DNA of 64,000 bases from Nitrospira sp. GTDB taxonomy: Bacteria; Nitrospirota; Nitrospiria; Nitrospirales; Nitrospiraceae. Positions 8,227 through 61,829 of this stretch are shown piece after piece (within the stretch, counting starts at the first letter, position 1; each line of letters opens with the position of its first letter). The stretch spans positions 62,001 to 126,000 of the forward strand of contig JAHBWT010000001.1 in assembly GCA_019636815.1 (NCBI GenBank), read 5' to 3'. Position numbers and translations under genes: made by a program. The notes under the pieces were generated by a model that was given only the letters and a program-made list of their open reading frames with translations, was not told where the DNA came from and ran no database searches.

Positions 8227-8682
8227 CTACACACGATCCACGACCACGAGCTCGTTGACGACATCCTTCACACCCGCCAGGTATGCATCATCAATCGCGT
8301 TTCGGACGGAGTCCCAATCCCTTACAGTACCTCTCAATGTGGCCGTGCCGTCGTTGACTGACACATCGATACCGTCACTTTTAATGAAGAGGCTCATTGC
8401 AAGTTGGCATTCCACCGCTTGCTTGAGCTCCTCGTCTGATTGCCACTCCCAATCATCTCCGTCGTCGAGCGAACCGTACGCAGCATCCTGACAAGGATCA
8501 GGGGAATTGTCGGACCACTTGTCACCAGGATATCCTTCGGCGCGAGCGTCGTTCTGATTCGTTCCCGATCCATACAGGCCTTTGTCTGAGTCGTAGCCTG
8601 ATAATCGCGCTCGCTCTTCAACGGCAAACAGAAGCGCTCCACCGATTAGGACAATCACGAATAATGAAGCTCGTGTGCCCAT
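8227..8682 (-). CDS. Exported BON-domain protein (copy 1)
   Basis: 151 aa. The N-terminal segment SLFVIVLIGGALLFAV is a signal peptide or anchor. A hydrophilic acidic stretch follows, then a BON domain from about residue 78: DEELKQAVECQL, IDVSVNDGTATLRGTV, AIDDAYLAGVKDVVNEL. BON domains are thought to contact phospholipid or envelope structures. The protein is clearly homologous to the 146-aa copy at 9767-10207, with the same DWEW-x-SDAEL lead-in. It lies downstream of a 42-aa membrane-protein gene and may share its promoter near 9030. Confidence 0.8.
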   Translation of the reverse strand: MGTRASLFVIVLIGGALLFAVEERARLSGYDSDKGLYGSGTNQNDARAEGYPGDKWSDNSPDPCQDAAYGSLDDGDDWEWQSDEELKQAVECQLAMSLFIKSDGIDVSVNDGTATLRGTVRDWDSVRNAIDDAYLAGVKDVVNELVVVDRV

Positions 8683-8774: not shown

Positions 8775-8903
8775 TCATGAAACCTGAGCCATCACCCTGG
8801 TGGTGGATGCAGCATAACCAAAGAGAGCGACCATGCCTAAACCTACGAGGAGGATCCAGAATAATGCTCCCAAACCTGTGGCAGTCGCCTGCGTATCCTC
8901 CAT
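8775..8903 (-). CDS. Small single-pass membrane protein, 42 aa
   Basis: An ATG at 8903 is preceded by an excellent ribosome site (AAGAAGGAGG, 6 bp spacing). It opens a 42-codon frame with a hydrophilic N-terminus (MEDTQATATGLG) and one transmembrane helix (ALFWILLVGLGMVALFGY). It has no recognised family. A sigma-54-like promoter at 9025-9039 and a tandem operator at 9147-9178 lie upstream at normal distances. The same operator type precedes cydAB, the complex-III cluster and hemerythrin, so a role linked to membrane respiration is a reasonable guess. Confidence 0.62.
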   Translation of the reverse strand: MEDTQATATGLGALFWILLVGLGMVALFGYAASTTRVMAQVS

Positions 8904-9024
8904 GACCGTCCTCCTTCTTGTTACCAGCCCTCAAATTGCATAGGGTCGTTCTATCACGTGACTGTCATTTACAGGCTAGTGCGTCAGAAGGTTTTACATG
9001 CCTTCTCTCTCTTCTTCTTTATTC

Positions 9025-9039
9025 GCAAAATGCGCGCCA
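9025..9039 (-). promoter_or_regulatory. Sigma-54-like -24/-12 promoter
   Basis: The minus strand reads TGGCGCGCATTTTGC, matching TGGCACG-N4-TTGC at all but one position, with GG-N10-GC spacing. Predicted transcription would begin near 9013 and read the 42-aa membrane protein and then the BON gene. The tandem operator starts 109 bp upstream of the -24 GG. Confidence 0.65.
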
Positions 9040-9146
9040 TACGTCGATCGTGATGCAAGCCACTCATACTTTTATTCAGGCACAATGTTCATTAAGCTTT
9101 CGCAGGTAGGAGGCGGCTCAAGGCTGGACGGCCGGTCACATGTGAG

Positions 9147-9178
9147 GGACAAGTCGTCTTTGCGCGGAAGTTCTGTCC
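9147..9178. promoter_or_regulatory. Tandem 19-bp-period operator, copy A
   Basis: Two half-palindromic sites, GGACA-AGT-CGTCT and GGAAG-TTC-TGTCC, are separated by 6 bp. Length (32 bp) and internal spacing (5-3-5-6-5-3-5) are identical to copies near 12.3, 53.2 and 60.8 kb. Placement upstream of a -24/-12 box suits an enhancer-binding protein. Confidence 0.6.
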
Positions 9179-9202
9179 CCCCGATGGCACGGGGATGCCA
9201 CA

Positions 9203-9237
9203 CTGAGTGTCCAGCGGACCAACCGCCGGACACTCAG
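9203..9237. repeat. 15-bp inverted repeat hairpin
   Basis: Arms CTGAGTGTCC-A-GCGG and CCGCCGGACACTCAG pair over 15 bp with one mismatch around a 5-nt loop. There is no T-tract on either side. It may still end transcription of the exported-protein gene at 9290, or be a protein site, since it contains TGTCC and GGACA half-sites like the operators nearby. Confidence 0.55.
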
Positions 9238-9289
9238 ATTAGCCTTCCTCTCAACCGAATATATATTTTAGGAAGAACTGCGACACACC

Positions 9290-12295: not shown

Positions 12296-12327
12296 GGAAC
12301 GATTGTCCCGGAAACGACAACCTGTCC
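12296..12327. promoter_or_regulatory. Tandem 19-bp-period operator, copy B (cydAB)
   Basis: GGAAC-GAT-TGTCC and CGACA-ACC-TGTCC separated by 6 bp, giving the same 5-3-5-6-5-3-5 layout as the copies near 9.1, 53.2 and 60.8 kb. It lies 131 bp upstream of the -24 element of the cydAB promoter, a usual enhancer distance. Confidence 0.6.
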
Positions 12328-12457: not shown

Positions 12458-12473
12458 CGGCATTTCACTTGCA
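12458..12473 (+). promoter_or_regulatory. Sigma-54-like -24/-12 promoter of cydAB
   Basis: CGGCATTTCACTTGCA has GG at 12459-12460 and GC at 12471-12472 (N10), with GGCA and TTGCA at the two boxes. The predicted start is near 12484, about 130 nt ahead of cydA. Confidence 0.6.
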
Positions 12474-15157: not shown

Positions 15158-15337
15158 ATGCTGCTGAAATGGGCAGTTATCTTTTTTGTGATCGCTCTGA
15201 TTGCCGCAGCGTTCGGTTTTACCGGCATCGCAGCCGGTGCGGCGGAAATCGCCAAGATTCTGTTCTATTTGTTTCTCGCGATCTTTGTCATCCTATTAAT
15301 CGCCGGATTGGTCATTGGGAACAAAATCGTCTCCTAG
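15158..15337 (+). CDS. DUF1328 (YtjA-type) small membrane protein
   Basis: 59 aa starting at ATG 15158 behind GAGGAGGACG. Two hydrophobic helices ([20 protein letters not shown] and [19 protein letters not shown]) flank [14 protein letters not shown], the characteristic DUF1328 pattern. Members are small inner-membrane proteins often linked to stress; the molecular role is unknown. A strong terminator lies about 210 bp downstream. Confidence 0.85.
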
Positions 15338-22960: not shown

Positions 22961-23287
22961 TCAGCGCTTCGGAAGAAACCTCTTCCGTGGGATTACAGCA
23001 GCCGAGACGTATTCAGCTCGACGATCCGTAGCTCGGTTCCCTCTGATCCACAAGGCACGATTCTGATCATCGACAGACACCGAAATGCGGTGGCCTTGTT
23101 GGATAGGAGGTTTCTGCGTCGTCTCAGTGACCTGGAAGTGCACTTCTTTCCCATTCTTATCCTTCACGACAAAATTCTCGCCATCCATCGGAAATACCGA
23201 TGCTCCGGGGACAGCTTGTCCATTGCTTTCCATGTCGATGTAGCATCCTCGCATCGAATCTGTCGCGAACGAACTGGTACTATCCAT
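22961..23287 (-). pseudogene. Degenerate member of the exported OB-like family
   Basis: A 108-codon frame contains the family core (DGENFVVKDKNGKEVHFQV, ISVSVDDQNRALWI) but has no signal peptide. An in-frame stop lies two codons upstream of the first possible ATG, so the export signal appears lost. It is listed as a likely decayed paralogue; an intact cytoplasmic protein is less likely. Confidence 0.45.
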
Positions 23288-53211: not shown

Positions 53212-53243
53212 GGACAAGCTGTCCCTTCTCGGACAAGCTGTCC
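53212..53243. promoter_or_regulatory. Tandem 19-bp-period operator, copy C (best copy)
   Basis: Two perfect GGACA-AGC-TGTCC sites separated by CTTCTC. This is the most regular of the four copies and defines the consensus. It lies between sodC (whose 3' end faces it) and the cytochrome c gene that opens the complex-III cluster. Confidence 0.65.
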
Positions 53244-60704: not shown

Positions 60705-60809
60705 GCGGTTTTTCGGTGGCTTCAAGAAATCTCGCGCTTTGGCCTTGAAAACATGAACCCGCCTCGCCCCCACAGCTCTTCTCCGATGAACCAGGTAACG
60801 GTGTCACGG

Positions 60810-60841
60810 ACAATCTGTCTAATGACGGACAAACTGTATCG
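60810..60841. promoter_or_regulatory. Tandem 19-bp-period operator, copy D
   Basis: GGACA-ATC-TGTCT and GGACA-AAC-TGTAT separated by 6 bp, in the same 32-bp layout as copies A-C. It faces hemerythrin on one side and the LuxR-type regulator on the other, so either or both could be controlled. Confidence 0.6.
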
Positions 60842-61187
60842 GAGAAGCCAACGAGTCGAATTACGATGGCACCGATATGTGTCTCGGCGCTTTGCTCGAT
60901 GCGGAAGGGTTGCACCAATCCTCTCGCGTGAGAGTCAGACCCGATGATGAGCCTATGTCTTCGGTATAGAGGGAGAATATGTCGCCACATTCCCGGGGTT
61001 GCCGGGAGTTGGGTTGCCAGGAGGTCGGTGGTGCGCTATCCCTCCGTGTTTCGATGGCGCTAGGGATTGGTCTAGTCGGCGAGGACGACCGCTCCTGTCA
61101 GGATTAAGGCGAGAAGGCGTGGAGGCCAGCAGAAGAGATTCCCTCTCAGGACGTACCCCTCGGGAGGGGTGGGAAAGAGGACGTGCT

Positions 61188-61829
61188 ATGGCTCGGGCCC
61201 GGATTGTCATCGCGGATGATCACCCCCTCGTCGTGGAAAGTGTCACCCAATTACTGGAGCCGACCTTTGCGGTGGTGGGCACCGCGCGGACGGGCCACGA
61301 GGTCATCGAGGCCGCCACGACGTTGCATCCGGATATCGTCTTTCTCGATGCGAACATGCCGGAAATGGGGGGCTTTGACGCGGCAAAAACGCTGAAACGC
61401 GTGCTGCCCCTGGTGCGGATCATTTTTGTGACCATGCGGACCGATGCGGTGGCCGTCAGTGAGGCCTTTCGCGCGGGCGCCACGGGGTATGTGCTCAAGC
61501 AGGACGCCGCGGAAGAATTGCTGGCGGCGGTCCACAGCGTGCTGCTGAATCGACGCTATGTGTCGGCCCAGCTCAGCCTCGAGATCCGCGACGTCATCGA
61601 GGCGGACTGGTCGAGGCCGGAAGGGTATACGGCGCACTTGACGGAGCGCCAGCGGCAGATTCTCGTCCTGCTCGCCAATGGAGGCCACACCAGGCAGATT
61701 GCCGAGGAGCTGCATATTTCGATGAAGACCGTCGAATTTCACAAGGCCAATATCGCACGCAAGCTGGGGGTCCATACCACCTCCGAGTTAATCCGCTTTG
61801 CCCTGGCGGCAGGCCTGACGACACTGTAA
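61188..61829 (+). CDS. NarL/LuxR-family response regulator
   Basis: 213 aa from ATG 61188 (MARARIVIADDHP) with AAGAGGA upstream. The receiver domain has the phospho-acceptor Asp in IVFLDANMPEMGG, the Thr in FVTMR and the Lys in VLKQDA. The LuxR-type HTH is at about 148-205: LTERQRQILVLLANGGHTRQ, IAEELHISMKTVEFHKANI. No kinase lies next to it. The fused kinase-receiver at 15.6 kb lacks an HTH and could use such a regulator, but this is a guess. The gene is more GC-rich than its neighbours. Confidence 0.92.
   Translation: MARARIVIADDHPLVVESVTQLLEPTFAVVGTARTGHEVIEAATTLHPDIVFLDANMPEMGGFDAAKTLKRVLPLVRIIFVTMRTDAVAVSEAFRAGATGYVLKQDAAEELLAAVHSVLLNRRYVSAQLSLEIRDVIEADWSRPEGYTAHLTERQRQILVLLANGGHTRQIAEELHISMKTVEFHKANIARKLGVHTTSELIRFALAAGLTTL

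Follow-up and report, generated by a model that had tools for sequence, protein, structure and literature searches.

Among described systems, the locus reported here is closest to the regulons of sigma-54 and NtrC-family enhancer-binding proteins (EBPs). In common with those regulons, it has a -24/-12 promoter with GG and GC, a genome in which rpoN is present, putative activator sites approximately 50-160 nt upstream, and a candidate activator with REC, AAA+ (GAFTGA), and Fis-type HTH domains. For the scoring of sigma-54 elements, the consensus TGGCACG-N4-TTGCW was used. A second point of comparison is provided by the small bd-oxidase subunits CydX, AppX, and CydS; like them, the 42-aa peptide described below is a small, single-helix membrane protein, and it shares its operator class with cydAB. 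To our knowledge, little is known about transcriptional control in Nitrospira. The operator-promoter arrangement is part of a regulon for which no description was found in the literature searched, where no title or abstract opening described the operator or the peptide. Overall, we consider it reasonably probable that the peptide gene is driven by an NtrC-type regulator and sigma-54, and that its product is an N-terminally deleted member of a family of larger membrane proteins (type A, see below), not a bd-oxidase subunit.

The window, i.e. the whole stretch of 64,000 nucleotides that was analysed, corresponds to bases 62001-126000 of contig C1 (138 kb) in a 4.0-Mb genome of 143 contigs. The earlier note on this DNA had proposed an operator and a near-consensus sigma-54 promoter in front of a 42-codon membrane peptide with a strong ribosome site, and all of these elements were recovered. 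On the minus strand, a tandem operator consisting of two GGACA-N3-TGTCC-type boxes (GGACAAGTCGTCT and GGAAGTTCTGTCC, as read on the plus strand; starts 19 nt apart, 4 mismatches in all) was located at 9147-9178, and a sigma-54 (-24/-12) promoter, TGGCGCGCATTTTGCG, was located 107 nt downstream at 9024-9039. Read along the minus strand from 9039 to 9024, the promoter matched the consensus at 10 of 12 positions, with GG and GC in place and the right spacing. The 5' leader (8904-9023) contained the Shine-Dalgarno sequence AAGGAGG six bases before the ATG of the 42-aa ORF, which lies at 8775-8903 on the same strand and had been left outside the box (9025-9178) drawn in the earlier note. The ATG, the ribosome site, and the stop were intact. 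The encoded peptide, MEDTQATATGLGALFWILLVGLGMVALFGYAASTTRVMAQVS, showed a best 19-residue hydropathy of 2.33, and a single-sequence structure prediction gave one helix over residues 2-41 (mean pLDDT 91.8). The next gene downstream (8227-8682, minus strand) encodes a BON-domain protein (PF04972) and is probably co-transcribed with the peptide. An inverted repeat with 26-nt arms (77% complementary) was observed at 9192-9248, separating the operator from the upstream gene pair; it is a possible terminator without a T run and was not reported by the terminator scan. Genome G115 has the same flanks: the locus is bordered by transaldolase, GAPDH, and LigD genes at one end and by SDR and cydA genes at the other. 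Between these shared flanks, G115 carries a type A gene, a type B gene, and a BON-type gene.

The peptide was found to be a homologue of the final helix in a family of uncharacterised membrane proteins of 131-185 aa, for whose two forms we coined the names type A and type B in the present analysis. Type A comprised six genes in five genomes (123-138 aa as read), which matched the peptide at 18-22 of 40 residues, and type B comprised 13 genes (175-185 aa), which matched it less closely. When a profile of the helix was used, 20 places were detected in 15 of the 175 family genomes (E<=1.3e-17; next match 0.016). Nineteen of these fall within open frames of 134-212 aa; ours, in a frame of 51, is the one copy that stands alone. 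A sample of 395 phylum genomes yielded no second copy of this kind, and a weak match there in G401 (E 7.6e-5, in a 29-residue frame) was taken as chance. The peptide carries the C-terminal helix signature of the family, LGxLFWxxLxxL...Y. The N-terminal helices with the AGGxWL...WxPF core, where the family is most strongly conserved (AGGLWLTPVGP...WMPFLF), are absent from the ORF. The peptide's own genome showed no clear remains of these helices and no other tail-type matches besides two at E 0.4 and 0.9. Full-length type A relatives were also present in three genomes of other families (G278, G408, and G315), suggesting that the 42-aa peptide is probably derived from an older long form. Two of these three genes have phospholipase-D-like neighbours (named by eye), and no clear function emerged from the context. 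The predicted structure of a full-length type A protein had a mean pLDDT of 55, and one type A protein matched VirB3 below the cut-off (E 0.0089), which was taken as chance for a membrane helix.

Regulation of the full-length relatives was then compared with that of the peptide. The first type A gene of G105 was preceded by the operator with TGGCGCGTATCTTGCG 92 nt downstream, and the type A gene of G115 by one good box with a sigma-54 element 102 nt downstream; at the peptide, the distance is 107 nt. In G104, G108, and G073, no operator at <=7 mismatches was detected before the type A genes within 420 nt or the shorter stretch searched. The second type A copy of G105 (L031:108-479) lacks a usual start, and a closed frame immediately upstream gives it the look of a gene damaged at its 5' end; the upstream sequence in this locus was too short for an operator verdict. 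None of the 13 type B genes had such an operator under the same limits (<=7 mismatches, 420 nt or the shorter stretch searched), and a sigma-54 element lay no more than 190 nt from the start in 12 of them. Control of these other family members thus differs from that at the operator-bearing genes. These elements, at L008, L012, L014, L015, and other loci, were strong, reaching 11/12 in TGGCGCGCATCTTGCA. The presence of sigma-54 elements without the tandem operator suggests that a second activator probably serves the type B genes.

The truncation raises the question of whether the peptide is more than a non-functional remnant, in which case a deletion would have left the promoter, the ribosome site, and the tail by chance, and the regulation and the BON gene would be what matters. 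Sequence comparison of the tails bears on this point. The peptide shared 22 of 40 residues with each of three type A proteins (two from G105 and one from G115) and 18-21 with the other three, and the two type A subgroups shared 16-21 of 40 with each other; hence, its tail is no more diverged than those of the full-length genes, which, together with the intact ATG, strong ribosome site, and stop, argues against decay. Against the type A gene of G115, however, differences by codon position were 15/10/15 in 37 codons, with no clear third-position excess (comparisons with two further type A genes gave 14/10/23 and 15/12/27). This weak signal, the single stand-alone form among 20 places with none further in the phylum sample, and the start-damaged appearance of the second copy in G105 favor a remnant, and the peptide may be a dying one because the best-conserved part of the family has been lost. 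That the genome holds the lost segment nowhere else is neutral between the two readings. On balance, we give the remnant rather less than an even chance. Translation of the peptide appears likely, and a selected function has, in our judgement, about an even chance. The earlier note had named lack of conservation of the reading frame as evidence against its proposal; the amino-acid sequence turned out to be conserved, whereas the stand-alone frame, present at one of the 20 places, did not.

The significance of the promoter and the operator was evaluated separately. Score-10 sigma-54 elements numbered 6 in the window and 4.8 per simulated window; the promoter by itself is thus at chance level and was dismissed as evidence when taken alone. 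The operator class is real and above chance. With <=1 mismatch, the single box GGACA-N3-TGTCC had 11 matches in the window as compared with 2.19 expected, a number reached in none of 100 shuffles. Box pairs with a 19-nt start-to-start distance and <=4 mismatches in all occurred four times in the window (at 9147, 12296, 53212, and 60808) and in none of 30 windows simulated by a first-order Markov model, the copy at 9147 being the weakest of the four with its 4 mismatches. In the whole genome, seven pairs were found at <=3 mismatches (control, 0 matches), six of them on contig C1. Furthermore, 71 tandem sites were detected in 19 of the 79 genomes of the genus, as compared with 3 sites in the backward control. 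A perfect single box, GGACAGCTTGTCC, was also noted at 23209-23221, with a degenerate partner at 19 nt.

A link between the operators and sigma-54 elements was observed when 43 distinct pairs were examined. This set, a subset of the 71, covers contig C1, one further contig of the same genome, and loci fetched around hits; mismatches were limited to 3, or to 4 on C1. Sigma-54 elements with a score of >=9 were found 50-170 nt from 20 of the 43 sites (background 6.2%, P 1.6e-13); orthologous operator sites share descent and are not independent, and the P values given here and below are therefore optimistic. When eight sites within the regulator's own gene (see below) were excluded, 18 of 35 operators had a nearby element. 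The genome also contains rpoN (PF00309 match over the cut-off). Helical phasing of the operator-promoter distances was weak (R 0.45 at 10.5 bp, p ~0.02, the best of five periods tried) and was set aside. At another operator, C1:60345, which lies 1655 bases before the window, a score-10 element was observed 107 nt downstream; the next long gene is 819 nt away, and a small unannotated gene may sit between.

A candidate for the protein acting at the operators was found 14 kb from the peptide at C1:55475-56923. Its product has REC, sigma-54 AAA+, and HTH_8 (Fis-type HTH) domains and carries GAFTGA, and it reached the cut-off of none of the 25 NCBIfam models shown. Orthologues (E below 1e-190) were present in 14 of the 79 genomes of the genus. 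Initially, operators were counted in 14/14 genomes with the regulator and in 5/65 others, but this co-occurrence is inflated because 11 of the 66 operator sites in these 14 genomes fall inside the regulator coding sequence, where protein conservation could keep them. When these sites were left out, an operator was present in 10/14 regulator genomes vs 5/65 others (P 1.6e-6), and at least two operators in 9/14 vs 0/65; four of the 14 regulator genomes had no site outside the regulator gene at <=3 mismatches. A pair lies <=300 nt upstream of the regulator gene in G053 and G058 and <=300 nt downstream of it in G055, and in the peptide's own genome a perfect single box lies upstream of the gene at C1:55256. 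The pattern of co-occurrence suggests that this NtrC-type protein is likely the activator at the tandem operators.

Binding of the tandem palindromes by another regulator of the island, e.g. a NarL-type response regulator, with the sigma-54 elements incidental, seems unlikely to us. Several NarL-type regulators are indeed encoded on the contig, and two operators, at 53212 (a perfect one) and C1:56829, have no sigma-54 element of score >=8 nearby. Nevertheless, sigma-54 elements near the sites are 3- to 8-fold above background, and G073, G106, and G107 have close homologues of the window's NarL-type regulator and no operator. As a separate observation, two nearly identical NarL-type response regulators, at 60999-61829 (plus strand) and C1:52506-53216 (minus strand), lie in inverted orientation approximately 70 kb apart and share 416 identical bases in one run.

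The other genes behind the operator include respiratory genes. Before cydA, an operator with 3 mismatches was located at 12296-12327 on the plus strand, 285 nt from the gene, with a sigma-54-like element (CGGCATTTCACTTGCA, 9/12) 130 nt downstream of it at 12458-12473. A perfect operator at 53212-53243 on the minus strand lies 70 nt before the first gene of an ACIII-type operon, whose leading genes encode a cytochrome c7-type protein and an ACIII-type molybdopterin oxidoreductase. The fourth, with 3 mismatches, is at 60808-60839 on the minus strand, 219 nt before a hemerythrin gene and with a score-8 element at 103 nt. In G053, the operator and a score-8 element are followed in a row by homologues of a PRC-domain gene and of C1:57031-58752 and by cydAB. 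The earlier suggestion that the peptide shares its regulation with respiratory genes is consistent with these operators, and it gains further support from the distribution of the operator class across Nitrospira-type genomes and the presence of rpoN. Co-regulation of cydAB with the peptide is plausible, given that both have the same operator, and the set of target genes would fit a response to low oxygen or to stress in general. A study of N. moscoviensis under nitrite-oxidizing conditions reports very weak expression of its two cydAB copies (PMC6606698).

Its size, its single helix, and the operator common to cydAB and the ACIII-type operon would favor the peptide as a CydX-like accessory subunit, either of the bd oxidase or of a complex-III-like assembly. 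This further idea of the earlier note is very improbable and was rejected on the family search (no Pfam or NCBIfam match of the peptide at E<=1, homology instead to the tail of a different and larger family, and no match of PF08173 (CydX) over the cut-off anywhere in the genome), on the gene place (3.7 kb from cydA on the opposite strand and not beside cydB), and on the phylogenetic pattern, since G053 has cydAB behind an operator of the same class, yet no such peptide. A 59-aa DUF1328 (PF07043) membrane protein is encoded at 15158-15337 on the plus strand, starting 184 nt after cydB, and is, by position, a better candidate for a small protein beside the bd oxidase.

Taken together, these findings are best explained by a regulated, truncated type A gene. 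The NtrC-family response regulator would bind the tandem GGACA-N3-TGTCC boxes and activate sigma-54 polymerase at the -24/-12 promoter approximately 100 nt downstream, firing a short transcription unit with the 42-aa peptide as the first ORF, followed by the BON-domain gene. The peptide presumably descends from a multi-helix type A protein, which in two relatives stands behind a like operator and promoter; its first helices would have been lost and the last helix restarted behind a strong ribosome site. The product is most likely a small, conditionally induced membrane protein, which may still perform, or compete for, the contact made by the last helix in the full-length family.

A broader and more tentative idea, which we think doubtful but worth stating, is that the one-helix gene, still under the original sigma-54 switch, persists as an independent micro-protein that inserts into a complex formed by its full-length relatives and modulates it, within an undescribed Nitrospira sigma-54 regulon in which one NtrC-type two-component regulator would jointly control the bd oxidase, complex-III-like genes, hemerythrin, and envelope proteins. 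The peptide would then clearly exemplify how a small protein can arise when most of a larger one is lost and the regulation is retained. Because a candidate regulator, its operator, and a set of genes can now be named, the switch of these nitrifiers to the bd oxidase and related functions becomes directly testable.

Compared with CydX, AppX, and CydS, the peptide has no sequence match to them, occupies another gene place, is homologous to another family, and is absent from a cydAB-bearing relative. With the type A/B family it shares a homologous C-terminal helix and, for two type A genes, a similar operator and promoter; it differs in lacking the first helices, the long form being found in all 19 other places in the family. 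Compared with known sigma-54/NtrC-family regulons, this one is distinguished by its GGACA-N3-TGTCC operator, arranged in tandem at 19 nt, and by targets that appear to centre on respiration and stress, not on nitrogen assimilation.
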